NCBI RefSeq assembly: GCF_000001735.4 | Contig: NC_003075.7 | Coordinates: forward strand, 5,953,001-6,017,000 | Source: Arabidopsis thaliana | Taxonomy: Eukaryota; Streptophyta; Magnoliopsida; Brassicales; Brassicaceae | Length of the DNA stretch: 64,000 nt | Reading direction: 5' to 3' | Shown: positions 12,693 to 48,761 of the stretch, piece by piece | Numbering within the stretch: position 1 is the first letter of the stretch | How the letters are laid out: every line of letters begins with the position of its first letter | Translations under genes and position numbers: made by a program | Notes under the pieces: generated by a model | What the model was told of the DNA's origin: nothing | Seen by the model: the letters and a program-made list of their open reading frames with translations, nothing else | Database searches by the model: none

Positions 12693-13078
12693 TGAAGTTT
12701 GGTGATCTATATGCTAAGTCTCAAAAAACACTCTAAGAGAATCAGAAGGTCTCAGAAGTCTGTTTTAGGCGAGCTAAGGAGGTGGCGACATCAGGTCTGG
12801 TTTAGGCGAGCTAAGGAGGTGGCGACATCAGAAGTCTGTTTTAGGCGAGCTAAGGAAGTAAGAGAGAGAAGAGAACAATTGTAGAGAGAAAGAGCTCGAG
12901 TTTGAGCTAAGTGTTTTTAGTGAATTCCGGAGACATCTCCGGCGAGACGTAGGGTTCCACATCGGAGCCTGAACTCGATAAATTCCCGTGCGTCTCTTTT
13001 ACGTTTTTTCTTTGAATCCGATCTCAAATCAAGTCAGAACCTGAAATCGATCCAATTTCTGAAGGTTCAAGGTTCACA
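12693..13078 (+). repeat. 5' LTR, internally deleted
   Basis: 386 bp, TG...CA. It contains three tandem copies of a roughly 36-bp repeat (TCTGKTTTAGGCGAGCTAAG, then GAGGTGGCGACATCAG). Relative to the 3' LTR it lacks 148 bp between GCTAAGGAA and GTAAGAGAGAG. The missing part contains the AT-rich promoter-like stretch. Confidence 0.88.
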
Positions 13079-13081
13079 AAT

Positions 13082-13093
13082 TGGTATCAGAGC
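13082..13093 (+). other. tRNA-iMet primer-binding site
   Basis: TGGTATCAGAGC directly after the 5' LTR. This is the standard plant copia primer-binding site, complementary to initiator methionine tRNA. Confidence 0.9.
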
Positions 13094-13130
13094 TAAAGGT
13101 TTAGCTCAAGAAGGTAAGATCGAATCAAAG

Positions 13131-16100
13131 ATGTCGAGTACGAAGTTAAAGATTTCTCAGTTTGATGGATCCGGTGACTTCTCACTATGGAAGACTCGGA
13201 TGTTCTCTCATCTAAGAGTGATGGGGTTAAAAGACGCTCTAGTGGAACAAGAACAGTTACCTCCTCTGAAAGATGAAGAAGAATCAGATCCTGCAAAGAA
13301 AAAACAAAGGATCGATGAAGAGAAGGCAAGAATAGATCGAGACGAGAAAGCGATGGATATGATCTTCATAAACGTCGGTGATAAGGTTCTCAGGAACATC
13401 GAGAACTCAAAGACTGCAGCTGAGGCATGGGCAACACTCGATAGATTGTATTTGGTAAAGTCTCTCCCAAATCGAGTCTACCTGCAACTTAAAGTCTATA
13501 ATTACAGAATGCAGGATTCAAAGACTCTCGAAGAAAATGTTGATGAGTTTCTAAAGATGATCTCAGACTTGAGTAACCTTCAGATTCAGGTTCCTGATGA
13601 AGTTCAAGCGATCTTGATACTTAGTGCCCTACCTGACAGTTATGACATGCTCAAGGAAACTCTGAAGTATGGGAGAGAAGGCATCAAATTGGATGAGGTC
13701 ATAAGCGCTGCGAAGTCTAAAGAACTGGAACTAAGGGATAGTTCAGGAGGATCAAGACCAGTAGGTGAAGGTCTATACGTCCGAGGTAAATCTCAAGCTG
13801 GAGGAGTGGGAAATAAGTCAACAGAGGGCAAGAAAGTCTGTTGGATATGTGGAAAGGAAGGACACTTCAAAAGACAATGTTACAAGTGGCTTGAGAAGAA
13901 TAAAGGAAATAGTGCAGGAGAAACAGCACTGGTAAAGGATGATGCTCAAGACTTGGTCGGTTTAGTTGCCTCAGAAGTAAACATTAGTGAGGATAAAAAC
14001 GATCAGGAAGAATGGATTATGGATACTGGGTGTTCATTCCACATGACACCAAGAAAGGAGTATCTGATAAACTTTGAAAAGGCTAAGTCAGGGAAGGTTA
14101 GAATGGCTAATAATTCTTACTCTGAGGTCAAAGGAATAGGCAGCGTGAGATTTGTCAAGAAAGATGGAACAAGCATTGTTCTTCAGGGAGTTAGATACAT
14201 TCCAGAAATTTCAAGGAATCTGATATCAATGGGAACCTTAGAAGCAGAAGGCTATGAATTCAAAGGTAACCATGGTATTCTGAGAGTCATGCAGGACTCA
14301 AACGAATTCATAAGAGGAAGAAGGAGAGCTTCTTTGTATATACTGGAAGCACAAGCTGAAATGGCTAATTCAGAATCTTTGGTTACAACTACAGGAGAAA
14401 CAGATCAGACACAGTTATGGCACAGTAGAATGGGTCACATAGGGCAACAGGCCATGGATATTCTAAGTAAGAAAGGGTGTTTTGGAAATGACAAGATCTC
14501 AGAAATAAAATTTTGCGAAGACTGTGTAATAGGAAAAACACACAAAGTCAGCTTCGGAACAGCTCAACACACAACTAAAGAGAAACTTGATTACGTTCAC
14601 TCAGATTTATGGGGGTCACCCAATGTACCCTACAGCCTTGGAAGATGCCAATACTTCATCTCCTTTACAGACGATTGGTCAAGAAAGGTTTGGATCTATT
14701 TTCTCAAGACTAAAGATGAAGCATTTCAGTCGTTTACAGAATGGAAAACGATGGTAGAGACCCAAAGTGAAAGGAAACTGAAACACTTGAGAACTGATAA
14801 TGGTCTTGAATTTTGCAACCATAAATTTGATGGAATCTGCAAGAAAGAAGGAATAGTGAGGCACAGGACCTGTACTTACACTCCACAACAGAATGGAGTT
14901 GCGGAAAGACTAAACAGGACCATTATGAACAAAGTTAGAAGTATGTTGAGTGAAAGTGGTCTTGACAAGAAGTTCTGGGCTGAAGCAGCAGCAACCTCAG
15001 TATATCTCATCAACAGATCCCCATCATCTGCTTTGGAAAACAAAATACCTGAAGAGCTGTGGACATCTGCAGTTCCAAGCTTATCTGGACTAAAAAGATT
15101 TGGATGCATTGTGTATGTGCACTCTCAAGAAGGAAAATTAGATCCAAGGGCTAAGAAAGGTGTGTTTTTGGGATATCCACAGGGAGTAAAGGGATTCAGA
15201 GTCTGGATGATTGATGAGGAGAAGTGCTCTATAAGCAGAAACGTCGTGTTCAGGGAAGATGTAATGTACAAAGACATCTTGAACAAGTTAACCTCAGGTA
15301 TGAGTCTTGAACTACCGTTTGTTACTAACAAGGTTCCCAGTTTTGAATGTACAGGTCTTAACAAGGATGGTGAACGTTTAGTTCAAGGTGGAGCTATTGA
15401 AAAAGAGTCAGATGAAACTCTAGAACTATCCAATACAGACCAGGAAGATACAGGAACAGAAAGGATTCAGAGAACCCATCAGATAGCCAGAGACAAACCA
15501 AAGAGACAGATTGTTATACCCTCAAGGTTAAAGGATTATGAAATGAATGAGGAAATACTTGATGAGATAGCAGGATATGCGTATCTTATCACAGAAGATG
15601 GAGGAAATCCAGAACCCACTGATTTCCAAGAAGTCCTGCAAGACCCTGACAATAAGAAATGGCTTGAAGCAGCAGATGAGGAGATAGAATCCCTCATTAA
15701 AAACAAGACTTGGACTCTAGTGGACAGAGACAATTCTCAGAAGCCTATCGGGTGCAAATGGATATTCAAAAGAAAAGCTGGAATTGCTGGAGTAGAACAA
15801 CCAAGGTTTAAGGCAAGACTTGTAGCTAAAGGTTATGCGCAGAAAGAAGGAATTGACTTCCAAGAGATTTTTTCACCAGTAGTGAAACATGTGTCCATTC
15901 GACTCTTGTTGTCAATGGTAGTTCATCTAAACATGGAACTGCAGCAAATGGATGTAAAGACGGCTTTCTTACATGGCTACTTAGACGAAACCATTTACAT
16001 GGACCAGCCCGAAGGTTACATTCATGAAAAATATCCAGATAAAGTTTGTCTGCTAAAAAGGTCATTGTATGGGTTGAAGCAGTCTCCCAGACAATGGAAC

Positions 16101-17177
16101 AACAGATTCAATGAGTTTATGCAGAGAATTGGATACGAGAGAAGTAAGTATGACAGTTGTGTGTACTACAAGATCTTACTAAGTGGAGATTACATCTATC
16201 TGTTACTCTACGTGGATGATATACTCATAGCATCCAAGGACAAGGAGCAGGTATGTGAGCTAAAGACTTTACTGAATTCTGAGTTTGAAATGAAGGATTT
16301 AGGTGATGCTAAGAAAATCCTAGGAATGGAAATCACAAGAGACAGACAAGCTGGTACTTTGACTATCTCACAAGAAGGCTATCTACTAAAGGTACTCAAG
16401 GACTTTGGAATGGACCAAGCCAAGTCTGTCAACACACCCATGGGAATTCATTTCAAACTAAAGCCAGCAAATGATGAAGAAGTGCAGAAGCAGTCTGAAG
16501 TGATGAGGGCTATTCCATATCAAAGCGTAGTAGGAAGTCTGATGTACTCGATGATTAGTACAAGACCAGACCTAGCCCATTCAGTAGGTCTAGTTTGCAA
16601 GTTTATGAGTAAGCCTCTGAAGGAACACTGGCAAGCTGTAAAATAGATACTCAGGTACATTAGTGGTACATTAGACCGAAAGTTGTGTTACAAGAATGAA
16701 GGAGAATGCATTCTAGAAGGGTACTGCGATTCTGATTATGCTGCAGACAAAGGAAGCAGAAGATCTACTTCAGGAGTAGTGTTTACTTTTGGAGGAAATA
16801 CAATAAGCTGGAAGTCTAACCTGCAGAAAGTTGTAGCTCTGTCGAGTACAGAAGCTGAATATATGGCTTTAACAGATGCAGCAAAGGAGGCAATTTGGCT
16901 AAAAGGGCTAGTGAACGAGTTAGGTTTCACACAAAAGACAGTGAACATTCACTGTGATTCACAAAGTGCAATAGCACTGGCTAAGAATGCGGTATATCAT
17001 GAAAGAACTAAACATATAGATGTTAAGTATCACTTCATCAGAGATTTGGTGAATAATGGAGAAGTGCAGGTTCTGAAGATTGATACAGAAGACAACCCTG
17101 CAGACATATTCACTAAGGTTTTACCAGTGAGCAAGTTTCAAGACGCCCTTGAATTGCTCAGAGTGTCTCAAAATTAA
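13131..17177 (+). pseudogene. copia gag-pol polyprotein with one nonsense codon
   Basis: One frame of 1,348 codons is interrupted only by TAG at 16,644-16,646, where the family has Trp (AVK-stop-ILRYISGT). Domains by residue from the ATG: gag (1-230, with SQFDGSGDFSLWKTRM), CCHC knuckle (about 237, CWICGKEGHFKRQC), protease (about 298, WIMDTGCSFH), integrase HHCC (about 430, WHSRMGH, then CEDCVIGK) with catalytic D (about 492), D (about 554) and E (about 591, NGVAERLNR), reverse transcriptase (YVDDILIAS at about 1,027), and RNase H after the stop (CDSDYAADKGSRR, LSSTEAEYMAL). It encodes the enzymes for retrotransposition. Suppression of the stop, or trans-complementation, would be needed for RNase H. 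Confidence 0.92.
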
Positions 17178-17333
17178 GGTGGAGCACTGCTCCAAGAAAC
17201 CAGCTGAGTGGGTTTACTCAGGGAGAAGAAGCTGAGTGGGTTTACTCAGGGATTTGAAGCTGAACGAGTTTGTTCAGGAACCGGAGAGGAATTCAAACTA
17301 AAGCAAAGTGGCATAAAGATCAAGGTGGAGATT

Positions 17334-17867
17334 TGAAGTTTGGTGATCTATATGTTAAGTCTCAAAAAACACTCTAAGAGAATCAGAAGGTCTCAGAAGT
17401 CTGTTTTAGGCGAGCTAAGGAGGTGGCGACATCAGGTCTGGTTTAGGCGAGCTAAGGAGGTGGCGACATCAGAAGTCTGTTTTAGGCGAGCTAAGGAAAT
17501 TACGACACGTGGAGCAATCTCCTTAGCTCGCCCATCTCTAACGGAATTATCTCTTCCGAGAGCTCGTCTTCTTCTGTTTCTTTAAGTACTCATCTGTTAT
17601 CTTAGTTCTGATTATTCGATTTAAAAGTGTATTGAATCGAGAGAGAGTAAGAGAGAGAAGAGAACAATTGTAGAGAGAAAGAGCTCGAGTTTGAGCTAAG
17701 TGTTTTTAGTGAATTCCGGAGACATCTCCGGCGAGACGTAGGGTTCCACATCGGAGCCTGAACTCGATAAATTCCCGTGCGTCTCTTTTACGTTTTTTCT
17801 TTGAATCCGATCTCAAATCAAGTCAGAACCTGAAATCGATCCAATTTCTGAAGGTTCAAGGTTCACA
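17334..17867 (+). repeat. 3' LTR, full length, next to the TNL start
   Basis: 534 bp, TG...CA. It has the same three 36-bp repeats as the 5' LTR plus 148 bp that the 5' LTR lacks. The extra part includes GAGCAATCTCCTTAGCTCGC, an inverted match to the repeat core GGCGAGCTAAGGA, and an AT-rich stretch near 17,580-17,640 that may hold the promoter. Its end is 64 bp upstream of the TNL ATG at 17,932 and in the same direction, so an LTR transcript would enter the resistance gene. Confidence 0.9.
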
Positions 17868-22729: not shown

Positions 22730-23277
22730 GAGTTTTTCAAGAATTTAGAAGAGGAGTTAGAGATTGGGCAGGAAAACAACCCTATAGTTGGTGTTGTTGG
22801 GATGGTTTGGGATTGGCAAAACTACTCTTGCTAAATCGTTTTACAACAAGTGGTAAGGAGATTTTACGCACAATATATGTATAGCAGAAGTAAGCAAGAT
22901 GTTAACGACCTAAAGGAGCATATGGACTGGAGTTGTTTGCAGATGATAGGACACACAAAGCATGCACATAAGGTTTGGATGTAATGTATGAGTTACTCAA
23001 AAGAAAATTTCTTGTTGTTCTCGATGATGTTAATGGAAAGAAACATTTCACCTCTTCTTGGTAATTTATATTGGATTTAGCGACAAGTCACTGCTCAAGA
23101 GTTTATTCAAAAATGCGGAAGTAGTCCCGAGATTAAACGACAAAGAAAGTTAGGGTGCTTCACTTATCATGCATGGCTTTAATTTGGCACTAAAAGATAG
23201 TGGGTATACTTATAGAAAGTTCCACTACAAATATGCATTTCTTGACGTTGCTTGTTTTTTTAGATCAGATCCTGCGA
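22730..23277 (+). pseudogene. NB-ARC fragment of a TNL-type gene
   Basis: Decayed remnant. The P-loop core is present across a frameshift at about 22,790-22,845 (VGVVGM, then GIGKTTLAKS in shifted phase). A kinase-2 motif follows (KRKFLVVLDDVNGKK, about 23,000-23,043). At 23,169-23,277 the frame reads MHGFNLALKDSGYTYRKFHY, then AFLDVACFFRSDPA, which is an RNBS-D-like motif. No TIR or LRR is visible. It runs directly into the tRNA-like repeat array at 23,278. Confidence 0.7.
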
Positions 23278-23346
23278 CTTGTTGCCGGGCTTTGAACCAG
23301 GTAAGTTCGGCAATGAAGATAAATTTAGCCTATGTGATACAACTGA
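23278..23346 (-). tRNA. tRNA-Glu-like sequence, copy 1 (degenerate)
   Basis: 69 nt on the minus strand. The T-arm region still has TTCAAAG with a partly paired stem (CCTGG/CCCGG). The acceptor arms are imperfect (TCAGTTG/CAACAAG), and the A-box region is changed to CATAGGC. Probably a pseudogene, fused to the end of the NBS remnant. Confidence 0.45.
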
Positions 23347-23582
23347 TTTTTTGTTAAAACATAAATATTTATTAATATATACATCATCGAAAAGGGATAA
23401 TTACAAAATTTAAAACAAAAAAGTTGTTTCCTTTGATAATAGATTAAAGAGTCTTTTTCCTTAAGTTACTTCCGCCTAATATGAAACATATTTTAACATT
23501 ATTGGGATTTGAACACATCTTCAATTAAGCAATGAAATATAAAACCAAAAAGAACAATTAAAAACTCAAAATAAAAAAGTCT

Positions 23583-23651
23583 TCCGTTGTCGGGCTTTGA
23601 ACCCGATAAGTTCGGCAATGAAGACGAATTTAGCCAGTGTGCTACAACGGA
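23583..23651 (-). tRNA. tRNA-Glu-like sequence, copy 2
   Basis: Minus strand. The acceptor arms TCCGTTG and CAACGGA pair perfectly and equal those I know for plant tRNA-Glu. A-box is TAGCACACTGGC and B-box GGTTCAAAGCC. The D-stem TAGC/GCTA pairs, the anticodon arm TTCG/CGAA encloses TTC (Glu), and the T-stem TCGGG/CCCGA pairs. The anticodon loop is longer than the normal 7 nt and the length is 69 nt, so charging is doubtful. This is the best cloverleaf in the array. Confidence 0.5.
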
Positions 23652-23694
23652 TTTCTTGCTAAATTGTAAATATTTATTAATATATACAACATCG

Positions 23695-24267
23695 TAGGCC
23701 TGGGCAAAAAAACCGCTAACCGATTAACCGAACCGAACCGAACCGAAAAACATGGTTCGGTTCGGGTTTGGATAGCTTAAAATAACCGGCTGGATATTAC
23801 ATGTCTTAGATTTCGGTTTCGGTTTCGGTTAGGTTAGTAACCGATAACCAAAGGATAACCAAAGCATATATGTATGATAGATAATATATCACATATATTG
23901 TATGTATTGACACTTAACTATGTTCTTCTCTTTATTAGTTTGCAAGTTAAATTTCGTGAGTTGTGAATCAGGTGTTTTAATGTTATGGAGAGTATGGACC
24001 ATATTTGCATCTTTGTGAGTTGTGAATATGTCTTACGTTCTATATCGGTTATTGGTCAATTTTTTTTGTTGTTTCGATTTTTAGTCGGTTATTTCGGTTT
24101 TGGTTTATTTATGGTTACCAAGTTTAATATCCGAACCGAACCGAACCGAAAGATATCCGAACCGAACCGAACCAAAATTCCTCAAATATCCAAATGGTTC
24201 TTATATTACTATAACCGAAATAACCGAAACCATGCGCAACCGAACCGAAACCGAATGCCCAGGCCTA
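23695..24267. mobile_element. hAT-type MITE inserted in the array
   Basis: 573 bp with perfect 12-bp terminal inverted repeats TAGGCCTGGGCA / TGCCCAGGCCTA and the 8-bp target duplication CAACATCG (23,687-23,694 and 24,268-24,275). The inside is made of (A)ACCGA repeats in both orientations near the ends and is non-coding. An 8-bp TSD and a YAGG start fit hAT. Confidence 0.88.
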
Positions 24268-24481
24268 CAACATCGAAAAGGATAATTACAAAATTTCAAA
24301 AAAAAAAGTTGTTTTCTTTGACAATAGGTTAAACTACAAAGTCTTTTTCCTTAAAGTTACTTACTTCCGGCTAGTATATGAAACATATTTTACCATTTTC
24401 GGGCTTTGAACACATCTTCTATTAAGCAATCAAATACAAAACCAAAAAGATCAATTACAAAACTCAAAATAAAAAATGTTT

Positions 24482-24549
24482 TCCCTTGCGGGGCTTTGAA
24501 TCCGTAAGTTCGTCAATGAAGACGAATTTAGCCAGTGTGGTACAATATT
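24482..24549 (-). tRNA. tRNA-Glu-like sequence, copy 3 (degenerate)
   Basis: 68 nt. The acceptor pairing is damaged (AATATTG/CAAGGGA). The T-arm carries GGATTCAAAGCCCC and the anticodon region TCTTCATTGACGAAC. Pseudogene-like. Confidence 0.4.
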
Positions 24550-24786
24550 TTTTTTCTATATAAATAAATATTTATATATACATCATCGAAAGGGATAATT
24601 ACAAAATTAAAAACAAAAAAGTTGTTTCCTTTGATAATAGGTTAAAGAGTCTTTTTCCTTAAAGTTACTTACTTCCGCCAAGTATGAAACATATTTTACC
24701 ATTATTAGGCATTAAACACATCTTCTATTAAGCAATGAAATACAAAACAAAAAAAAACAATTACAAAACTCAAAATCAAAAAGTCT

Positions 24787-24855
24787 TCCGTTGTCGAGCT
24801 TTGAACCCGGTAAGTTTGGTAATAAAGACGAATTTAGCCAGTGTGCTACAACAAA
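24787..24855 (-). tRNA. tRNA-Glu-like sequence, copy 4 (degenerate)
   Basis: The A-box TAGCACACTGGC is intact. The T-arm is CCGGG-TTCAAAG-CTCGA (imperfect) and the acceptor TTTGTTG/CAACGGA has two mismatches. The anticodon stem is weakened (ACCAAAC). Confidence 0.4.
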
Positions 24856-25098
24856 TCTTTTGTTAAGTTATAAATATTTATCAATATATACAACATCGAA
24901 AAGGATAATTACAAAGTTTAAAAAAAAAAAAAAGTTGTTTCCTTTGATAAAAGGTTAAAGAGTATTTTTCTTTAAAGTTACTTACTTCCGCCTAGTATGA
25001 AACATATTTTACCATTTAGGGCTTTGAACACATCTTCTATTAGCGCAATGAAATACAAAACCAAAAAAATAACTACAAAACTCAAAATAAAAAGGTCT

Positions 25099-25167
25099 TC
25101 CGTTGTCGGGCTTTGAACCTAGTAAGTTCAGCAATGAAGACGAATCTAGCCGGTGTATTACAACGGA
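25099..25167 (-). tRNA. tRNA-Glu-like sequence, copy 5
   Basis: The acceptor TCCGTTG/CAACGGA is perfect. The A-box is altered (AATACACCGGCTAG). The T-stem is CTAGG/CCCGA, with mismatches, around TTCAAAG. Confidence 0.45.
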
Positions 25168-25409
25168 TTTTTTGTTAAATTGTAAATATTTTTTAATATA
25201 TACAACATCGAAAAAGAATAATTACAAAATTTAAAACAAAAAAGTTGTTTTCTTTGACAATAGGTTAAAGAGTCTTATTCCTTAAAGTTACTTACTTCCG
25301 CCTGGTATGAAACATATTTTACCATTTTTGGGCTTTGAACTCATCTTCTTTTATGCAATGAAATACAAAACCAAAAAAAAAAATTACAAAAGTCAAAATA
25401 AAAAAGTCT

Positions 25410-25478
25410 TCAGTTGCCGAGCTTTGAGCCCGGTAAGTTTGGCAATAAAGACGAATTTAGCCAGTGTGCTACAACGAA
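25410..25478 (-). tRNA. tRNA-Glu-like sequence, copy 6
   Basis: A-box TAGCACACTGGC is intact. T-arm CCGGG-CTCAAAG-CTCGG. The acceptor TTCGTTG/CAACTGA is imperfect. Confidence 0.42.
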
Positions 25479-25719
25479 ATTTTTGTTAAAATATAAATAT
25501 TTATTAATATATACATCATCGAAAGGGATAATTACAAAATTTAAAATAAAAAATTTGTTTCCTTTGGTAATAGGTTAAAGAGTCTTTTTCCTTAAAGTTA
25601 CTTACTTCCACCAAGTATGAAACATATTTTACCATTATTAGGCTTTGAACACACCTTCTATTAAGCAATGAAATACAAAACCAAAAAGAACAATTACAAA
25701 ACTCAAAATAAAAAAGTCT

Positions 25720-25788
25720 TCTGTTGCCGGGCTTTGAACTCGGTAAGTTCGGCAATGAAGACGAATTTAGCCAGTGTGCTACAACGGA
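25720..25788 (-). tRNA. tRNA-Glu-like sequence, copy 7
   Basis: The acceptor TCCGTTG/CAACAGA has one mismatch. The A-box is intact, the anticodon arm TTCG/CGAA encloses TTC, and the T-arm is CCGAG-TTCAAAG-CCCGG. After copy 2 this is one of the best-preserved copies. Confidence 0.48.
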
Positions 25789-26032
25789 TTTGTTTTGTTA
25801 TATTTAAATATTTATTTATATATACATTATCGAAAGGGATAATTACAAAATTGAAAACAAAAAAAAGTTGTTTCCTTTGATAATAGGTTAAAGAGTCTTT
25901 TTCCATAAAGTTACTTACTTTCGCCAACTATGAAACATATTTTACCATTATTAGGCTTTGAACACATATTTTATTAAGCAATGAAATACAAAATCAAAAA
26001 GAATAATTGAAAAATTCAAAATCATAAAGTCT

Positions 26033-26101
26033 TCCGTTGTAGGGCTTTGAACCCGATAAGTTCAGCAATGAAGACGAATTTAGCCAGTGTGCTACAACAA
26101 A
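26033..26101 (-). tRNA. tRNA-Glu-like sequence, copy 8
   Basis: The A-box is intact and the anticodon TTC is kept. The T-arm is TCGGG-TTCAAAG-CCCTA, and the acceptor is TTTGTTG/CAACGGA. Confidence 0.42.
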
Positions 26102-26334
26102 TTTTATGTTAAAATATAAATATATTCATCATCGAAAAGGATAATTACAAAATTTAAAACAAAAAGAAAGTTGTTTCCTTTGATAATAGATTAAAGAATC
26201 TTTTTCCTTAAGTTACTTACTTTCACCTAGTATGAAACATATTTTAAAATTATTGGGCTTTGAATAGATCTTCTATTAAGCAATAAAATACAAAACCAAA
26301 AAGAACAATTACAAAACTAAAAATTAAAAAGTCT

Positions 26335-26403
26335 TCCATTGCGAGGCTTTGAACCCGGTAAGCTCGGCAATGAAAATGAATTTAGCCAGTGTGCTACAAT
26401 GGA
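26335..26403 (-). tRNA. tRNA-Glu-like sequence, copy 9
   Basis: The acceptor TCCATTG/CAATGGA pairs perfectly although both arms differ from the consensus, a paired change. The A-box is intact and the T-arm is CCGGG-TTCAAAG-CCTCG. The anticodon stem is altered (TTCATTTTCATTGCCGAG). Confidence 0.45.
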
Positions 26404-26421
26404 TTTTTTTGTTAAATTATA

Positions 26422-26680
26422 CTCCCTCTGTTCCTTTTTGTTTGATTGTTTAGAAAAAAAAATTTGTTTCTAAAAGATTGATTTTTTAAGTTTTCCATGT
26501 AATATATATTGGTTAGTATTGGTGAATTGTAATTTTCAAAAAAAATAGTTAATTATCATTGGTTTAAAGTTATAGAAAATTGTAAAACACTAAAAATAAT
26601 ACATTTATAATCAACATTTAATATGTTTTCTTAATATGTGTGTTTTTTCTAAACAATCAAACAAAAAGGAACAGAGGGAG
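26422..26680. mobile_element. Stowaway-type MITE inserted in the array
   Basis: 259 bp. The terminal inverted repeat CTCCCTCTGTTCCTTTTTG continues TTTGATTGTTTAGA and is essentially perfect at both ends. It is flanked by TA (26,420-26,421 and 26,681-26,682). Non-coding. Confidence 0.88.
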
Positions 26681-26908
26681 TAAATGTTTATCAATATATA
26701 CAACATCGAAAAGAATAATTACTAAATTTAAAACAAAAATAAGTTGTTTCTTTGATTATAGGTTAAAGAGTGTTTTTCCTTAAAGTTACTTACTTCCGCC
26801 TAGTATGAAACAAATTTTACCATTGTTGAGTTTTGAACACATCTTCTATTAAGCAATGAAATATAAAACAAAAAAAAACAATTATAAAACTCAAAATAAA
26901 AAAAGTCT

Positions 26909-26977
26909 ACCGTTGTTGGGCTTTGAACCCAGTAAGTTTGGTAATGATGACGAATTTAGCCAGTGTACTACAACGGA
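26909..26977 (-). tRNA. tRNA-Glu-like sequence, copy 10
   Basis: The acceptor TCCGTTG/CAACGGT pairs in six of seven positions. The A-box is TAGTACACTGGC. The T-arm is CTGGG-TTCAAAG-CCCAA. Anticodon loop changed to CGTCATCATTACC. A truncated copy 11 (27,204-27,221) ends the array. Confidence 0.4.
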
Positions 26978-27222
26978 TTTTTCGTTAAAATTTTAAATAT
27001 TTATTAACATATACAACATCGAAAAGGATAATTACAAAATTTAAAACAAAAAAGTTATTTTCCTTGATAATAGATTAAAAAGTCTTTTTCCTTAAAGTTA
27101 CATATTATAAAACATATTTTACCATTATGGGGCTTTGAACACATCTTCTATTAAGCAATGAAATACAAAACGAAAAATTACAAAACACAAAATAAAAAAA
27201 GCCTCCTGTTGCCGGGCTTTAG

Positions 27223-34003: not shown

Positions 34004-34382
34004 TGTAGAAGACAACCCAATAAATAGAACGGGCTTTGACAAAAACAAAGACATGGTAGCCCAAACTCAACAAAGCCCACTACAGAAGCCCAGTCAACAT
34101 ATGCAAAAGAAGATAAAGACCAAAAGCTCTTTACCTGCAAAACAGAAGACTGTCACTAATACGGAGAAGAAGACAATAACACTTGAAAACAAATTCAAGC
34201 CGTTGCAGTCGCTGCCGTTGCAGTAATTCACAATAAATAGCTATTGATTAAAGATAGCATTGTCAAGGATTCTAAATTGTTCTAAAGAAGTCATAAAAGA
34301 AAGATGTAAAACTCCATTGAAAGATAAGCAAAATAAAAACATTTTTTGTCAAGAAATAATCACAGTTTTATTTTTCTCTTCA
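34004..34382 (+). repeat. 5' LTR of the second copia element
   Basis: 379 bp starting TGTAGAAGACAACCC and ending TTTCTCTTCA, followed at once by TGGTATCAGAGC at 34,383-34,394 (primer-binding site). Confidence 0.9.
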
Positions 34383-34418
34383 TGGTATCAGAGCTATTAT
34401 ACCTTAACAGGTGATTCA

Positions 34419-37400
34419 ATGGCCCCTGCTTACCCTTTTCCAGACAATGTCCATGTCTCTAGTTCCGTTACCTTAAAGCTCAACGATAGTAACTACTTGT
34501 TGTGGAAGACACAGTTTGAGTCCCTTCTATCGAGCCAAAAGCTCATAGGTTTTGTCAATGGAGTCGTCACTCCTCCAGCTCAGACTCGTCTTGTTGTTAA
34601 TGATGATGTCACCAGCGAAGTTCCGAATCCTCAATATGAAGACTGGTTTTGCACAGACCAGCTCGTCCGGTCGTGGTTGTTTGGTACGCTTTCAGAGGAA
34701 GTGCTTGGTCATGTCCACAACCTCACTACATCTCGTCAGATTTGGATCTCTCTAGCTGAAAATTTCAACAAAAGTAGCATCGCCAGAGAGTTTTCTCTTC
34801 GTCGTAATCTTCAACTTCTGACAAAAAAAGATAAGTCTCTATCTGTTTACTGTCGTGATTTTAAAATAATATGCGACTCTCTAAGCTCCATTGGCAAACC
34901 AGTAGAGGAATCCATGAAAATCTTTGGCTTTCTCAATGGACTCGGCAGAGAGTACGATCCTATCACCACAGTTATCCAAAGCTCCCTAAGCAAGCTCCCT
35001 GCTCCGACGTTTAACGACGTCATCTCCGAAGTTCAAGGGTTTGACAGTAAGCTGCAATCTTATGACGACACTGTCTCTGTTAATCCTCATCTTGCGTTCA
35101 ATACTGAAAGATCTAACTCTGGCGCTCCTCAATACAATTCCAATTCCCGTGGTCGTGGTCGTTCTGGGCAAAACAGAGGACGCGGTGGCTACTCTACACG
35201 CGGCAGAGGATTTTCTCAACATCAATCCGCTTCACCATCATCAGGACAAAGACCAGTTTGTCAAATTTGTGGTCGCATAGGACACACTGCTATCAAATGC
35301 TACAACCGATTTGACAACAACTACCAAAGTGAAGTCCCTACTCAAGCATTTTCTGCTCTCCGTGTCTCTGATGAAACCGGCAAGGAATGGTACCCCGATT
35401 CTGCAGCCACAGCCCACATAACAGCCTCAACATCTGGTCTGCAAAACGCAACAACATATGAGGGAAACGATGCAGTCTTGGTTGGAGATGGAACATACCT
35501 CCCTATTACACATGTTGGATCCACCACAATTTCCTCATCCAAAGGTACTATTCCGTTGAATGAAGTCTTAGTGTGCCCTGCTATACAAAAATCTCTTCTA
35601 TCTGTGTCCAAACTTTGCGATGATTATCCATGCGGTGTTTATTTTGATGCTAATAAGGTTTGCATAATTGATTTAACCACTCAGAAAGTGGTGTCCAAGG
35701 GTCCACGAAATAATGGGCTCTACATGCTGGAGAATTCAGAGTTTGTAGCACTCTATTCAAATCGTCAATGTGCAGCTAGCATGGAAACATGGCATCATCG
35801 ACTTGGCCACTCAAACTCAAAGATTCTTCAGCAACTTTTAACCCGCAAGGAAATCCAAGTGAATAAAAGCAGAACTTCTCCCGTTTGTGAGCCTTGCCAA
35901 ATGGGAAAGAGCACTAGATTACAGTTTTTCTCTTCTGATTTTCGAGCTTTAAAACCTTTAGATCGAGTTCATTGTGATCTTTGGGGACCATCACCGGTTG
36001 TATCAAACCAAGGATTCAAATACTATGCAGTTTTTGTTGATGATTTCTCAAGATTCTCTTGGTTTTTTCCTTTGCGCATGAAGTCAAAGTTTATTTCAGT
36101 GTTTATTGCATATCAGAAATTGGTTGAGAATCAACTTGGTACAAAAATCAAAGAGTTTCAAAGCGATGGAGGGGGAGAATTTACAAGCAACAAATTAAAA
36201 GAACACTTTAGAGAGCATGGCATTCATCATCGTATATCTTGTCCATATACACCGCAACAAAACGGTGTTGCCGAAAGGAAGCACAGACATTTGGTAGAGC
36301 TTGGGCTTTCAATGTTATATCACAGTCATACACCTCTCAAGTTCTGGGTAGAAGCTTTCTTCACTGCCAACTATCTCAGTAATCTCTTGCCTTCTTCTGT
36401 CCTCAAGGAAATAAGTCCCTATGAAACTTTGTTTCAACAAAAAGTTGATTATACACCTCTCCGAGTGTTTGGTACAGCCTGCTACCCCTGCTTGAGACCG
36501 TTAGCAAAGAACAAGTTTGATCCACGCTCGTTGCAATGCGTGTTTCTTGGCTATCACAACCAATACAAGGGATACCGCTGTTTGTATCCTCCTACCGGTA
36601 AAGTCTACATCTCTAGACATGTCATTTTTGATGAAGCTCAATTCCCATTTAAAGAAAAGTACCACAGTCTGGTTCCAAAATACCAGACGACCTTACTACA
36701 GGCTTGGCAACATACTGATCTCACACCACCTTCAGTGCCTTCTTCTCAATTACAACCTCTTGCAAGACAAATGACTCCTATGGCAACAAGTGAGAATCAG
36801 CCAATGATGAATTATGAGACAGAGGAAGCCGTCAATGTTAATATGGAAACTAGCTCTGATGAGGAAACTGAATCAAATGATGAATTTGACCACGAAGTAG
36901 CTCCCGTACTAAATGATCAAAATGAAGACAATGCACTAGGACAAGGCTCATTAGAAAATCTCCATCCCATGATTACAAGATCAAAAGATGGAATTCAGAA
37001 GCCAAACCCCCGGTATGCTCTCATTGTCTCTAAATCCTCTTTTGATGAACCAAAAACTATTACTACTGCTATGAAGCATCCTAGCTGGAACGCTGCAGTT
37101 ATGGATGAGATAGATCGCATTCACATGCTAAACACTTGGTCTCTAGTTCCTGCAACAGAGGACATGAATATTCTGACATCCAAATGGGTTTTCAAGACTA
37201 AACTCAAACCTGATGGCACCATAGATAAGTTGAAAGCTCGTCTAGTTGCCAAAGGGTTTGATCAAGAAGAAGGAGTCGACTATCTTGAGACATTCAGTCC
37301 GGTTGTTCGAACTGCAACTATACGTCTTGTTCTCGATACCGCTACTGCAAATGAGTGGCCTCTCAAACAGCTTGATGTGTCCAACGCGTTTCTCCATGGA

Positions 37401-38819
37401 GAATTACAAGAACCGGTGTTTATGTTCCAACCCTCTGGTTTTGTTGATCCTAACAAGCCTAATCACGTTTGTCGGCTCACCAAAGCTCTTTATGGTCTAA
37501 AACAAGCGCCTAGAGCCTGGTTTGACACCTTTAGCAACTTTCTTCTTGACTTTGGCTTTGAGTGCAGCACATCTGATCCTTCCCTCTTCGTTTGTCATCA
37601 AAATGGGCAAAGTCTCATACTCCTCTTATATGTCGACGATATACTCCTCACAGGAAGTGATCAACTGCTCATGGATAAACTTCTTCAAGCTCTCAACAAC
37701 CGCTTTTCGATGAAAGATCTTGGGCCTCCTCGCTATTTTTTGGGTATAGAAATTGAATCTTACAACAATGGTCTATTTTTACATCAACACGCATACGCTT
37801 CCGACATTCTTCATCAAGCAGGCATGACAGAATGCAACCCTATGCCTACCCCTCTGCCACAACACTTGGAAGACCTCAATTCAGAACCCTTTGAAGAGCC
37901 AACATACTTTCGGAGTTTAGCTGGCAAGTTACAATACTTAACAATCACAAGACCGGATATTCAATATGCCGTGAACTTCATCTGCCAAAGAATGCACGCT
38001 CCGACCAACTCTGATTTTGGCCTTCTCAAACGCATACTCAGGTATGTGAAAGGAACTATCAACATGGGGCTTCCAATCAGAAAACACCACAACCCTGTTC
38101 TTTCGGGATTTTGCGATAGTGATTACGCTGGCTGCAAGGACACTAGACGCTCCACTACTGGTTTCTGCATCCTCTTGGGATCTACTCTGATATCTTGGTC
38201 TGCAAAGAGACAACCCACTATCTCTCACTCCTCAACAGAAGCCGAATATAGAGCTCTTTCCGATACAGCTCGAGAAATCACTTGGATTTCCTCTCTTCTC
38301 CGAGATCTTGGAATCTCTCAACATCAACCTACACGAGTGTTCTGTGATAACCTATCTGCTGTCTACCTCTCTGCAAATCCTGCTCTTCATAAACGATCTA
38401 AACACTTCGATAAAGACTTTCACTACATCAGGGAACGTGTGGCTCTCGGTCTCATAGAAACGCAACACATCCCAGCAACTATTCAACTTGCTGATGTCTT
38501 CACCAAGTCACTACCGCGACGGCCCTTTATCACGCTTAGAGCCAAACTCGGCGTGTCTGCGTCACCGGTCTCACCCACGCCAAGTTTGAAGGAGGGTGTA
38601 GAAGACAACCCAATAAATAGAACGGGCTTTGACAAAAACAAAGACATGGTAGCCCAAACTCAACAAAGCCCACTACAGAAGCCCAGTCAACATATGCAAA
38701 AGAAGATAAAGACCAAAAGCTCTTTACCTGCAAAACAGAAGACTGTCACTAATACGGAGAAGAAGACAATAACACTTGAAAACAAATTCAAGCCGTTGCA
38801 GTCGCTGCCGTTGCAGTAA
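34419..38819 (+). CDS. copia gag-pol polyprotein (uninterrupted)
   Basis: From the ATG at 34,419, 36 bp after the 5' LTR, about 1,466 codons are open. I prefer this start to in-phase non-ATG codons inside the LTR. Domains by residue: gag (about 15-250, with SSVTLKLNDSNYLLWKTQF), a Gly/Arg-rich stretch (about 245-270), CCHC knuckle CQICGRIGHTAIKC (about 281), protease with WYPDSAATAHIT (about 326), integrase HHCC (WHHRLGH, CEPCQMGK) and D, D, E at about 517, 581 and 618 (NGVAERKHR), reverse transcriptase with YVDDILLTG (about 1,070), and RNase H with CDSDYAGCKDTRR and SSTEAEYRALS. The C-terminus runs roughly 75 codons into the 3' LTR before TAA at 38,817. It encodes all functions for retrotransposition. 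Confidence 0.92.
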   Translation: MAPAYPFPDNVHVSSSVTLKLNDSNYLLWKTQFESLLSSQKLIGFVNGVVTPPAQTRLVVNDDVTSEVPNPQYEDWFCTDQLVRSWLFGTLSEEVLGHVHNLTTSRQIWISLAENFNKSSIAREFSLRRNLQLLTKKDKSLSVYCRDFKIICDSLSSIGKPVEESMKIFGFLNGLGREYDPITTVIQSSLSKLPAPTFNDVISEVQGFDSKLQSYDDTVSVNPHLAFNTERSNSGAPQYNSNSRGRGRSGQNRGRGGYSTRGRGFSQHQSASPSSGQRPVCQICGRIGHTAIKCYNRFDNNYQSEVPTQAFSALRVSDETGKEWYPDSAATAHITASTSGLQNATTYEGNDAVLVGDGTYLPITHVGSTTISSSKGTIPLNEVLVCPAIQKSLLSVSKLCDDYPCGVYFDANKVCIIDLTTQKVVSKGPRNNGLYMLENSEFVALYSNRQCAASMETWHHRLGHSNSKILQQLLTRKEIQVNKSRTSPVCEPCQMGKSTRLQFFSSDFRALKPLDRVHCDLWGPSPVVSNQGFKYYAVFVDDFSRFSWFFPLRMKSKFISVFIAYQKLVENQLGTKIKEFQSDGGGEFTSNKLKEHFREHGIHHRISCPYTPQQNGVAERKHRHLVELGLSMLYHSHTPLKFWVEAFFTANYLSNLLPSSVLKEISPYETLFQQKVDYTPLRVFGTACYPCLRPLAKNKFDPRSLQCVFLGYHNQYKGYRCLYPPTGKVYISRHVIFDEAQFPFKEKYHSLVPKYQTTLLQAWQHTDLTPPSVPSSQLQPLARQMTPMATSENQPMMNYETEEAVNVNMETSSDEETESNDEFDHEVAPVLNDQNEDNALGQGSLENLHPMITRSKDGIQKPNPRYALIVSKSSFDEPKTITTAMKHPSWNAAVMDEIDRIHMLNTWSLVPATEDMNILTSKWVFKTKLKPDGTIDKLKARLVAKGFDQEEGVDYLETFSPVVRTATIRLVLDTATANEWPLKQLDVSNAFLHGELQEPVFMFQPSGFVDPNKPNHVCRLTKALYGLKQAPRAWFDTFSNFLLDFGFECSTSDPSLFVCHQNGQSLILLLYVDDILLTGSDQLLMDKLLQALNNRFSMKDLGPPRYFLGIEIESYNNGLFLHQHAYASDILHQAGMTECNPMPTPLPQHLEDLNSEPFEEPTYFRSLAGKLQYLTITRPDIQYAVNFICQRMHAPTNSDFGLLKRILRYVKGTINMGLPIRKHHNPVLSGFCDSDYAGCKDTRRSTTGFCILLGSTLISWSAKRQPTISHSSTEAEYRALSDTAREITWISSLLRDLGISQHQPTRVFCDNLSAVYLSANPALHKRSKHFDKDFHYIRERVALGLIETQHIPATIQLADVFTKSLPRRPFITLRAKLGVSASPVSPTPSLKEGVEDNPINRTGFDKNKDMVAQTQQSPLQKPSQHMQKKIKTKSSLPAKQKTVTNTEKKTITLENKFKPLQSLPLQ

Positions 38820-43376: not shown

Positions 43377-43859
43377 TTGTCCTAATATGATTAAATAATG
43401 TTTTTTCTACTAATACATTATAGACATATCATTTCTGATTATAAAAATATATTTCTATTTTTACCGACATATAATTTCAAATTAAAAAGATAAATTAGTA
43501 TTTACAAAATATTTCTAATTATAAAGCATATGTTTATTTTCCTAATATTTTAAACTTTTTGATTTTCTACCATCTAGTTAAAAAGTTTTTATAGACATCA
43601 ATTCTAATTATAAAGATATATTTCTAGATATTTCAAATCTCTTACTTCTACTATCACGAGATAATTTTTTTAATAGACATAACAATTCAATTTTATTCAG
43701 ATCTTCGACCATAATGAATACTTAGGAATAATATATCTACAAAAATAGAAACATATCGTAAAAATTGGATATATATACATAGACATACATATACATAAAC
43801 TTACATAGATATCCAAACACTAAATTAGTTGAATATCAATTCAATTGTCAGTTTTAAAA

Positions 43860-44204
43860 ATGGCCAAAATATCATCACCTTTGGCTCTCTTATTCATCAT
43901 GTTATCTTCCATCATGATCAACCATGTGGCGAGTTCCAAAACATGGTGTATAGCAACTCTAATCGCAACGAATGCGCAGCTGCAAGCAAATATTAATTTT
44001 GCATGTAGTCAAGGAGTTGATTGTAGGCCAATCCAACCTGGTGGATCTTGTTTTATCCCTAATAATCTTGCAAATCATGCATCGTTTGTGATGAACTCTT
44101 ATTATCAGACTCATGGTCGTACCAATCAGGCATGTAGTTTCAAAAATACCGGAACATTTGCTGCTACCGATCCTAGTTTTGGTAAATGTGTGTATGCGTC
44201 TTAG
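43860..44204 (+). CDS. Secreted X8-domain (CBM43-like) protein, copy 1
   Basis: 114 aa from the first ATG (MAKISSPLALLFIML...). Residues 1 to about 26 form a signal peptide. The X8 domain follows, starting KTWCIAT, with six Cys (WC, AC, DC, SC, AC, KC) and the family core LQANINFACSQGVDCRPIQP, then GGSCF, then HASFVMNSYYQ. Single X8 proteins bind beta-1,3-glucan in the cell wall or at plasmodesmata. This copy lacks the two residues (Ile-His) present after MINH in the other four and has QPGG rather than RPGG, so it is the most distinct unit. A TATATATA run lies about 90 bp upstream. The order fits At4g09462-09467. Confidence 0.88.
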   Translation: MAKISSPLALLFIMLSSIMINHVASSKTWCIATLIATNAQLQANINFACSQGVDCRPIQPGGSCFIPNNLANHASFVMNSYYQTHGRTNQACSFKNTGTFAATDPSFGKCVYAS

Positions 44205-46130
44205 AAATTTTATTTTGTTTTGATAATTTTTAAGCGTAATAAAAGAATGAATTGGTGATTACAATCATCCATTGGTGAATACAATACATAATAAAAGAAA
44301 TGGTGATTTCAATCATCCATTGGTGAATAAATGCGTAATTAATTTGATTGAATACGTAAGACATAAAAAGCGAGACAGATCCAAAAATATATATATTTAC
44401 AAAGATGACTCAAGTTGAACAAATCTCTTTAACCATGAGGCTCCACCAAATAGATACCATCATAAGTTCATAACTTAACCACCTATGCTAATCCACTATC
44501 AAATTCCTATTTTTTTTTTTTGTCTCCATTAATATAGTTTTTCTAGAAAAGTTGTTATTTACGGATCTCGTTAGACGGTGCATTGTTAACTCAAAGGACC
44601 TATCTAGTCCTTGAAATTCAAAAACAATAAGCTCCAAAGGTTTGATGATCTGTCATATGGAACCACCTCCCGAGGTTTGCGCTAAGAGAATTTATAATGA
44701 GAATCCATAGGTATTAACCATAACTTTAAAGATATAAATATATCCCTTTCTGCTGTTAAATCTGACCTAAGATATTCCTTTGATGTCCCTTGTAGTTATG
44801 CTAACATGTTTACATTAATCCCGTAAATAGTTTCAATTTGTGGAGTTAGGATTGCTCTCTCTATAATCCTTACATATGTAATTTTTGAAAAATTGGTTTC
44901 CATATTTATGGTTTGAAATATAACCTGAAAATAATATCTAATTTATTGCATTATAAATATAGGATCAACGACCATAATCTGACCATCGTCTTTGTTGACC
45001 TATTTAGCTTCACCTTTGGGTATTTTTCCATCTTCTACAGTTAGGAGCCATGCAGCTAAATTTTCTTGGATTTTTTAAATCCATGGGAGAAGACTTTGCA
45101 ACAGGCTTACAAGTATGGCTGTCTACTTGATGCTAAGACCACACGCATCATCGTGAGAGTCTTGTGGAATAATGATGTGTGTGCTTTTTTACCTCATAAG
45201 TTTTACTTTATAAAATACATGAAAAGTATCGAGTGCACCACTAATCTTATGTGTATTTAAGGAGTGATTACACAAAAAGAGAGAGAATGTGTTCCAAATC
45301 AATTAGAAAAGATATAAGCTATGACAAAAATAAGAGATTAGTTTATATTTCGTCATAGAAACAAGCAAGCAAGTAAATATGAAAAACATTCAACAAAGTG
45401 AAGTGTTGGGCATCACGAGTTTGCAAGAGATTCATTAAAACCTTCATTCCATGACTCTAAGATTATCAATCACTTACTAAACAAATTCTTTAACTTAATC
45501 TTAGGTGGAACAAAAATGACCTAAAGACTCACGGTTCGAATAGTCTATAGTCTAAGTTCTAAACTAAGCAGTTACTCAATTCTTCTAACAATTCAGTTAC
45601 TTATCAGTTACTCAAATTTTTCGAATAGTCTATAGTCTAAGTTCTAAACCCCGAGTATTTTTGAAAAGAAGTATCTAATATGATTAAATTATGTTTTTCT
45701 ACTAATACATTATAGACATATCATTTCTGATTATAAAAATATATTTCTATTTTTACCGACATATAATTTCAAATTAAAAAGATAAATTAGTATTTACAAA
45801 ATATTTCTAATTACAAAGCATATATTTATTTTCCAAAATATTTTAAACTTTTTGATTTTCTACCATCTAGTTAAAAAGTTTTTATAGACATCAATTCTAA
45901 TTATAAAGATATATTTCTAGATATTTCAAATCTCTTACTTCTACTATCACGAGATATTTTTTTTATTCAAATCTTCGACCAAAATGAATAACTTGGAATA
46001 ATATATCTACAAAAGTAGAAATATATCATCAAAATTTTATATATATATACATAGACGCACACATACATATACCTACATAGATATCCAAAAACTAAATTAG
46101 TTGAATACAATTCAATTGTCAGTTTTAAAA

Positions 46131-46481
46131 ATGGCCAAAATATCATCACCTTTGGCTCTCTTATTCATCATGTTATCTTCCATCATGATCAACCATATCC
46201 ATGTGGCGAGTTCCAAAACATGGTGTATAGCAACTCTAATCGCAACGAATGCGCAGCTGCAAGCAAATATTAATTTTGCATGTAGTCAAGGAGTTGATTG
46301 TAGGCCAATCCGACCTGGTGGATCTTGTTTTATCCCTAATAATCTTGCAAATCATGCATCGTTTGTGATGAACTCTTATTATCAGACCCATGGTCGTACC
46401 AATCAGGCATGTAGTTTCAAAAATACCGGCACATTTGCTGCTACCGATCCTAGTTTTGGTAAATGTGTGTATGCGTCTTAG
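46131..46481 (+). CDS. Secreted X8-domain protein, copy 2
   Basis: 116 aa with signal peptide and complete X8 domain with all six Cys. It has the Ile-His insertion before VASSKTWC and RPGG at the glucan-binding core. The protein is identical to copy 5. The 3' flank reads TTTTGCTTCGATAATTTC, then AAAACAATG, shared only with copy 5. The upstream TATA-like run TTATATATATATACATAG is retained. Confidence 0.88.
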   Translation: MAKISSPLALLFIMLSSIMINHIHVASSKTWCIATLIATNAQLQANINFACSQGVDCRPIRPGGSCFIPNNLANHASFVMNSYYQTHGRTNQACSFKNTGTFAATDPSFGKCVYAS

Positions 46482-48410: not shown

Positions 48411-48761
48411 ATGGCCAAAATATCATCACCTTTGGCTCTCTTATTCATCATGTTATCTTCCATCATGATCAATCATATCCATGTGGCGAGTTCCAAAACA
48501 TGGTGTATAGCAACTCTAATCGCAACGAATGCGCAGCTGCAAGCAAATATTAATTTTGCATGTAGTCAAGGAGTTGATTGTAGGCCAATCCGACCTGGTG
48601 GATCTTGTTTTATCCCTAATAATCTTGCAAATCATGCATCGTTTGTGATGAACTCTTATTATCAGACCCATGGTCGTACCAATAAGGCATGTAGTTTCAA
48701 AAATACCGGCACATTTGCTGCTACCGATCCTAGTTTTGGTAAATGTGTGTATGCGTCTTAG
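48411..48761 (+). CDS. Secreted X8-domain protein, copy 3
   Basis: 116 aa, complete. It differs from copy 2 by one residue (TNKACS in place of TNQACS). Signal peptide and six Cys are intact. The 3' flank is of the TTTTGTTTCG type. The companion segment downstream (49,600-49,830) carries several private changes shared partly with unit 4 (for example CATCAGCGTGAG). Confidence 0.88.
   Translation: MAKISSPLALLFIMLSSIMINHIHVASSKTWCIATLIATNAQLQANINFACSQGVDCRPIRPGGSCFIPNNLANHASFVMNSYYQTHGRTNKACSFKNTGTFAATDPSFGKCVYAS

Follow-up and report, generated by a model that had tools for sequence, protein, structure and literature searches.

Within a 64,000-nucleotide stretch of the Arabidopsis thaliana genome (the window), a tandem array of tRNA-like units raises the question of whether a tRNA-Glu gene was amplified in place or whether the array derives from another kind of element. 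Judged from sequence comparisons, and with a probability of roughly 0.64, the array would belong, as one branch, to a family of Pol III-type tRNA-like genes that derives from tRNA-Glu and is dispersed in the genome.

Direct reading of the window confirmed the original prediction of ten 68- to 69-nt minus-strand bodies plus one truncated copy in an array of ~310-bp units (23278..27220, minus strand), and tandem amplification is borne out by the ten bodies in a row and by TRF, which found 6.9 copies of period 313 at 24266-26421. Each unit proved to be a dimer of two modules of the ~150-bp kind seen at other clusters; one holds the retained tRNA-like body, and the other has decayed. The bodies, each starting on the minus strand at the higher of its coordinates, lie at 26909..26977 (body 1), 26335..26403 (body 2), 26033..26101 (body 3), 25720..25788 (body 4), 25410..25478 (body 5), 25099..25167 (body 6), 24787..24855 (body 7), 24482..24549 (body 8), 23583..23651 (body 9), and 23278..23346 (body 10). 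The truncated minus-strand copy at 27201..27220, read directly, consists of a body 3′ end (AAAGCCCGGCAAC...) followed by a T-run. The predicted acceptor arms TCCGTTG/CAACGGA hold as a consensus but not in single copies, which differ from it: body 2 has TCCATTG/CAATGGA, a change on both sides, and all seven acceptor pairs (G-U counted) form in 5 of the 10 bodies. Body 8 is the most decayed and body 10, at the array end, lacks the T-run; body 9 is the sole intact copy, with 7/7 acceptor, 4/4 D-like, and 5/5 T-arm pairs together with the B-box, CAA, and T-run.

Two insertions, read by eye, widen the spacing between units. One (26422..26680, no strand assigned), which we take to be a Stowaway-like MITE, has CTCCCTC...GAGGGAG ends and a TA target duplication; the other (23695..24267, likewise unstranded), presumably a hAT-like non-autonomous element, has TAGGCCTGGGCA termini and 8-bp CGATGTTG duplications.

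The claimed kinship with tRNA-Glu was upheld. When the array consensus was compared with 48 distinct tRNA sequences, the 13 tRNA-Glu sequences scored 61 to 67 and the best of the 35 others 50, while 2,000 shuffles of the consensus reached a maximum of 41 against tRNA-Glu. The consensus contains the acceptor and T-arm sequence of tRNA-Glu (67 versus 50 for the best non-Glu), and the proposal that both tRNA halves are kept was likewise supported. With one representative per family locus, tRNA-Glu outscored tRNA-Asp in all 12 cases, the margin ranging from 2 to 16. A model built from the window copies (R1) matched 11 of 13 tRNA-Glu loci at 19 to 21 bits and, in the 35 other tRNA loci, gave only one 18-nt match, with an E value of 9.9 and on the opposite strand. 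A second model (R2) was built from 12 non-window copies at six loci, using 60- to 70-nt copies only and including 1 of the 4 copies from chromosome 1 at 4.60 Mb; it matched all 13 tRNA-Glu-CTC loci at 27 to 29 bits and none of the 35 others.

Direct amplification of a tRNA-Glu gene, as originally proposed, is not supported, given traits of the array itself. The motif TAGCAC is carried by the array and by 12 of 12 locus consensuses examined, versus 0 of the 13 tRNA-Glu loci read; bases 8-11 of the array can pair with bases 18-21, a pairing absent from those 13 loci; and the array lacks an anticodon arm. Since these traits are absent from the tRNA-Glu loci read and TAGCAC is common to all 12 consensuses, the array appears to branch from a tRNA-like family distinct from the tRNA-Glu genes. 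The presumed TTC-containing anticodon arm was not borne out, the predicted loop being ~10 nt and the stretch not common to the other loci, and the reading of TTC as a Glu anticodon found no support: the middle varies between loci in both length and sequence, and an anticodon stem with a 7-nt loop and a Glu anticodon was not found in it. An alternative, in which an ordinary tRNA-Glu gene or pseudogene expanded in place into a satellite and the other loci are independent tRNA-Glu pseudogenes, would account for tRNA-Glu being the nearest tRNA and for an array decay much like that of neutral DNA. We nevertheless regard it as quite improbable given the distribution of TAGCAC and given that R2, which is free of window copies, recovered all ten window bodies at 19.9 to 59.4 bits, nine of them at 36 to 59 (the tenth, body 8, at 19.9), compared with 27 to 29 for tRNA-Glu-CTC.

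Standard tRNA tools largely pass over these units. ARAGORN called no gene in the window and, at 14 family loci, a single copy (L089, as Asp). The Rfam tRNA model (RF00005) gave no match on the array even at an E value of 10 and no passing copy on the chromosome 5 array; three family copies on chromosome 2 did pass, at 29.1 to 30.9 bits versus a threshold of 29. The original prediction had been staked on tRNA-Glu similarity in a covariance scan, and the outcome was divided: Rfam's general model misses the array, but the three chromosome 2 copies pass, and tRNA-Glu genes are singled out by the models built from the family. Among the Rfam matches with E values up to 10, alpha-tmRNA was rejected (best E value 0.0028, 20.6 bits versus 50), its match resting on the T-arm and acceptor.

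Genome pattern searches revealed the same design at 13 loci, with ~106 copies by our count. A unit has an upstream TATA and CAA, then TCCGCTG-TAGC-6/7-nt loop-GNTA, a divergent middle of 15 to 40 nt without an anticodon arm, and a 3′ part made of the T-arm CCGGG-TTCAAAN-CCCGG, CAGCGGA, and a T-run; the body of a typical unit measures 60 to 85 nt. Four such patterns gave 78, 9, 45, and 42 matches in the genome versus 0, 1, 1, and 0 for the respective reversed controls, and an A-box pattern gave 19 versus 3, with 11 of the 19 outside the array. As members were found through arm patterns, conserved arms are favored by the search. R2 found ~71 copies on chromosome 5, and ~150-bp modules recur at several clusters. 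Grouping of the window copies points to the chromosome 1 4.60-Mb cluster and away from the tRNA-Glu genes. Whole array units used as DNA queries against the genome retrieved nothing beyond the array itself, and the spacers are therefore not common to other loci. Pattern stretches in viral contigs (91) and genome contigs (95) were set aside as ordinary tRNA genes, judging by match lengths and prokaryotic record titles only, and a Medicago small RNA matched by sequence string in the literature does not belong to the family. No published description of the family was found among the literature matches listed, the search covering literature only.

Pol III-type signals (A-box, B-box, upstream TATA and CAA, T-run) were supported by sequence, albeit not in every copy. 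Copy counts for signals and arms refer to the 92 copies with an R1 E value below 0.1, leaving out L087, L116, and ~13 weaker chromosome 5 copies. CAA, TATA, and T-run occurred together in 64 of these 92 versus 0.8% of 6,000 random places, and in 18 of the 34 outside the large chromosome 5 array. Among the ten window copies, CAA was found in 7, TATA in 9, the T-run in 9, and the exact B-box GGTTCRANNCC in 6, while the B-box-like GGNTCAAAGCYC, allowing up to one mismatch, had 14 matches in the window versus a shuffled mean of 1.19. The retained B-boxes, together with the reading frames with NB-ARC and LRR near the array, would suit a chromatin role in which TFIIIC binds the B-boxes and forms a boundary beside the TIR-NBS-LRR genes, no transcript being needed; with the exact B-box lost from 4 of the 10 copies, we give this explanation hardly any chance. 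No observation favored the boundary, TFIIIC, or decoy roles suggested originally. The TIR-NBS-LRR gene of the window is presumably AT4G09430. A methylated region reported upstream of that gene is distinct from the array.

The window consensus folds as a cloverleaf (z, -3.3); the z values of 12 locus representatives lay between -3.8 and +1.0, three of them being no lower than -0.9. Of the 12 locus consensuses, 11 have a complete seven-pair acceptor stem; pair 5 is C-G or T-A and pair 6 T-A or A-T. Mean identity across the 12 representatives was 83% in the arms, as opposed to 53% in the middle (shuffled, 50%), 66% upstream (62%), and 65% downstream (64%). With between-locus identity near the shuffled level, the middle was ruled out as a conserved guide or anticodon. 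Within-locus shuffles were marginal for the acceptor arm (52/1,000 without and 18/1,000 with the chromosome 5 array) and gave no signal for the D arm (483/2,000).

Dispersed and tandem copies with conserved boxes and a center free to diverge could also be produced by a selfish repeat, i.e., a mobile element (small and SINE-like, or of another type) whose Pol III promoter derives from tRNA-Glu, amplified locally in tandem and without a host role, the copies of which stay alike because active ones need the promoter. In a search with the chromosome 2 12.33-Mb locus, three of four other-locus matches started at the body and none of these upstream, as retroposed copies would. However, one chromosome 5 4.16-Mb match takes in ~36 nt of upstream sequence, and matches in the chromosome 5 15.27-Mb search extend upstream by ~60 nt (chromosome 2, 2.071 Mb) and ~44 nt (chromosome 4, 2.73 Mb); upstream sequence common to loci argues against retroposition, since a retroposed transcript would not carry it. 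Moreover, acceptor and T stems are paired in most copies, a pairing for which a SINE head has no need, and the flanks of family loci inspected by eye showed neither a tail nor a target duplication. On balance, we consider a selfish repeat unlikely, though not negligible.

Within the tRNA-like family that we favor, the window array is best read as a mostly pseudogenized branch, with 1 of 10 copies intact. Weighing against the family reading, the array's bodies are no better preserved than its spacers (divergence of 0.150 versus 0.089 to 0.139; P = 0.19 for body versus spacer without CG and CHG sites), and covariation among the ten copies showed no excess over shuffles. CG decay was found in the bodies (18/108 versus 9/135 at CHH, P = 0.02) and not in the spacers (2/36 versus 58/456 changed).

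By sequence, a typical unit combines upstream TATA/CAA and internal A-/B-box promoter signals with a T-run terminator, and its body can adopt a cloverleaf shape made up of acceptor and T arms plus a short D-like arm. Intact members, such as body 9 and copies on chromosome 1 (6.927 Mb), chromosome 2 (12.333 and 12.335 Mb), and chromosome 5 (8.439 Mb), may be transcribed by Pol III and their transcripts trimmed like pre-tRNAs by RNase P and RNase Z, either without any role or with one that does not involve decoding. The window array would have grown by unequal exchange, may have been methylated, and would now consist mostly of pseudogenes. On sequence grounds we put forward, tentatively and as a doubtful rather than a probable proposition, that these units form an undescribed nuclear family that arose from tRNA-Glu, with its own tRNA-type promoter, transcribed by Pol III, processed like pre-tRNAs, and unable to decode, the outer cloverleaf being under selection and the center free between loci, with some clusters having become satellites of up to ~71 copies. 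Should intact copies be transcribed, tRNA finders would mostly have missed some hundred units of tRNA shape in a much-studied plant genome; these would pass through the Pol III, RNase P, RNase Z, and CCA machinery without decoding, and would offer a clear test of selection on the cloverleaf in the absence of an anticodon. The window array would show such units becoming a decaying satellite within an immune-receptor cluster.

Tandem tRNA-type units have precedents in Arabidopsis. A tRNA-Cys cluster has 0.4-kb units with one pseudogene and putative Helitrons (PMC10701932), and Arabidopsis tRNA gene clusters are reported to be methylated and repressed (PMC11700998). The array shares its tandem organization with the tRNA-Pro, Tyr/Ser, and Cys clusters but, unlike these recognized decoding genes, has no anticodon arm and has Glu as its nearest tRNA. 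Three chromosome 2 copies match mascRNA/menRNA (RF01684) weakly, at 23.4 to 24.1 bits, far under the Rfam threshold of 42.5. The family units bear their own tRNA-gene signals, whereas mascRNA is released by cleavage of a longer RNA, and the similarity does not reflect kinship. In plant mitochondria, t-elements and tRNA-like sequences yield RNAs that are processed and CCA-tailed but not charged (PMC11658184). Those elements are mitochondrial and often lie at mRNA ends, whereas the family described here is chromosomal, with Pol III-type signals. tRNA-derived SINEs, finally, conserve the A- and B-boxes of their tRNA ancestor, as does this family, which differs from them in keeping both tRNA halves and the acceptor pairing, in forming tandem clusters, and in having some upstream sequence common to its loci.

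The ten minus-strand copies of 68 to 69 nt in ~310-bp units claimed in the original prediction were confirmed: ten tRNA-like bodies lie on the minus strand at C4:5976278-5980220 (the window being C4:5953001-6017000), spaced 302 to 313 bp apart except where a Stowaway-like MITE and a hAT-like element, the latter with 8-bp duplications, lengthen two of the intervals. The array end is adjoined on the plus strand (window 22800-23275) by a stretch that, read by eye, resembles the P-loop of an NB-ARC gene fragment. Elsewhere in the window, Copia-type retroelement reading frames occupy 12752-17497 and 34248-38819; short tandem repeats of one consensus bracket the first (12752-12856 and 17393-17497) and look like LTR parts. 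Motifs recurring every ~2.28 kb (at 43417, 45709, 47990, 50272, and 52545) suggest that 43417-53450 is a tandem repeat on a larger scale, with about five units.

The predicted likeness to tRNA-Glu held in alignment, but neither ARAGORN nor the Rfam tRNA model found a match in the window array. In global alignments covering 13 tRNA-Glu loci and, from other tRNAs, 35 distinct sequences (50 loci retrieved, tRNA-Asp absent), the array consensus scored highest with nuclear tRNA-Glu, at 67 versus 50 for the best other tRNA and a maximum of 41 for the shuffled consensus (2000 shuffles against tRNA-Glu, 300 against the whole set). A tRNA-Asp sequence from outside this set scored 53. Copy by copy, numbering from the high-coordinate end, Glu was the closest tRNA for 8 of the 10 bodies; copy 8 was closest to another tRNA and copy 10 gave a tie. 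Folding gave a cloverleaf for the consensus (-23.9 kcal/mol, z -3.3, 0/200 shuffles equally good) and for copy 9 without alteration (z -3.2, 3/200 shuffles), the other nine copies having z values from +0.2 to -2.5.

When whole window units were used as the query against the genome (119.66 Mb, 7 contigs), the array itself was the sole match. A search with a 3′-end body pattern, in contrast, gave 78 matches versus 0 in the reversed control; by our count, the window array accounts for 9 of them, a second array, on chromosome 5, for 42, and tRNA-Glu genes for 12, with 15 at other places. Further patterns gave 9 versus 1 (both boxes), 45 versus 1 (5′ end), and 42 versus 0 (3′ end). By our own count over the matches, the family totals about 106 copies at 13 loci, likely a lower bound because the genome search scores candidates only. 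Besides the ten window copies (chromosome 4, 5.98 Mb), there are four each on chromosome 1 at 4.60 Mb (spacing 145 to 162 bp), chromosome 5 at 15.27 Mb (282 to 295 bp), and chromosome 2 at 12.33 Mb (785 to 1858 bp, unlike the other clusters); three each on chromosome 4 at 2.73 Mb (152 and 310 bp) and chromosome 5 at 4.16 Mb (147 to 148 bp); and two on chromosome 5 at 8.44 Mb (139 bp). Additional loci lie on chromosome 1 at 6.93, 21.37, and 23.62 Mb (the last a 5′ half only) and on chromosome 2 at 2.071 and 2.075 Mb. The largest locus is a ~24-kb satellite of 355-bp units at chromosome 5 13437535-13462095 (loci L098 to L100; 91% matches by TRF in the middle 10 kb) with about 71 bodies, a count in which two rows represent a single copy split at the edge of a locus and E is near 0.1 for the two weakest.

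The loci read have a common design, from which most copies deviate somewhere: upstream TATA and CAA, TCCGCTG, TAGC, a 6- to 7-nt loop, GNTA, a middle of 15 to 40 nt, CCGGG-TTCAAAN-CCCGG, CAGCGGA, and a T-run. R2, a sequence model built on 12 copies from six loci outside the window, recovered all 10 window copies (19.9 to 59.4 bits) and nothing else there up to E 10. In a set of 52 loci, tRNA loci and controls together, it matched 13/13 tRNA-Glu-CTC loci (27 to 29 bits), one more tRNA-Glu locus (L305), two tRNA-Glu-like sequences (L087 and L306), and the tRNA-Asp-like L304 (20.3 bits), and none of the 35 loci of other isotypes. The family's kinship with tRNA-Glu is specific but distant. L087 (1501-1571, minus strand; chromosome 1, 21.56 Mb) and L306 (14-85, plus strand; chromosome 1, 3.14 Mb) are of another design, with TGTCATCTAGTNTGGT and a mid-sequence G-run/C-run hairpin; their acceptors, TCCGTTG/CAACGGA and TCTGTTG/CAACAGA, differ from each other on both sides. 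L304 (1-101; chromosome 5, 11.785 Mb) has the 15 bases GGCGCCAAATTGATA, CCA included, at each end.

Signals of the kind expected around tRNA genes accompany many copies. CAA at most 14 nt upstream, a TATA-like element at -45 to -18, and at least four T within 25 nt downstream occurred together in 64/92 copies overall and in 18/34 once the chromosome 5 13.4-Mb array is set aside, versus 0.8% of 6000 positions picked at random within six of these loci. They are uneven, TATA being present in 1/4 copies at chromosome 2 12.33 Mb and CAA in 1/3 at chromosome 4 2.73 Mb. Such elements are known from plant tRNA genes (PMC11700998) and were reportedly described by Yukawa in 2000.

In favor of selection, the seven acceptor pairs are complete in 11/12 locus consensuses, with pair 5 being C-G or T-A and pair 6 T-A or A-T. 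Under between-locus shuffles, which ignore relatedness, acceptor pairing was equaled in 0/2000 without the chromosome 5 13.4-Mb array and T-arm pairing in 13/2000. Also in favor, identity between loci is 83% in the arms and near random in the middle and downstream flank. Against selection, within-locus acceptor shuffles were marginal (52/1000 without that array, 18/1000 with it), the D arm gave no signal (483/2000), and the copies had been located by their arms.

The two halves of the 310-bp window unit align with each other at 98 (maximum of 1000 shuffles, 83) and their spacers at 61 (maximum of 2000 shuffles, 57); the second body alone scored 28, not above shuffles (mean 14, maximum 41). Window halves exceeded 300 single-base shuffles in 7/8 comparisons with the chromosome 1 monomers, the exception being half 2 against monomer 4 (76; shuffle maximum, 92). 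From these alignments, the window unit is read as two ~150-bp modules forming a putative dimer, one of whose bodies has decayed. Some loci have upstream sequence in common (about 60, 44, and 36 nt), which speaks for DNA-level copying. With a chromosome 2 query, 3/4 matches at other loci start at the body, and part of the family may therefore have been retroposed.

Within the window array, where nine full units are 82 to 93% identical, the bodies are no better preserved than the spacers, only 1/10 copies is intact, and the ten copies give no covariation signal; constraint looks relaxed. In the bodies, 23/108 CG cells are changed, 18 by C>T or G>A, versus 10/135 CHH cells, 9 by these transitions (transition excess, p 0.02). 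Such CG-focused change is the footprint expected of methylated DNA, whereas the spacers lack it (CG 2/36, CHH 58/456). As a branch of the family, the window array is probably in decay and perhaps silenced.

The literature searched has Arabidopsis tRNA clusters for Pro, Tyr/Ser, and Cys; neither a Glu cluster nor a family of this kind appeared in it, and we provisionally regard the family as new. Most likely, Pol III would transcribe intact copies, starting from their tRNA-type promoter and stopping at the T-run, and the transcript, a cloverleaf without anticodon arm, would be trimmed as a pre-tRNA. Because they have no anticodon, the family RNAs could not decode. The family can be likened to two RNA systems (PMC11658184): the mitochondrial tRNA-like RNAs of Arabidopsis, which are reportedly processed and not charged, and human mascRNA, which has a similar shape.
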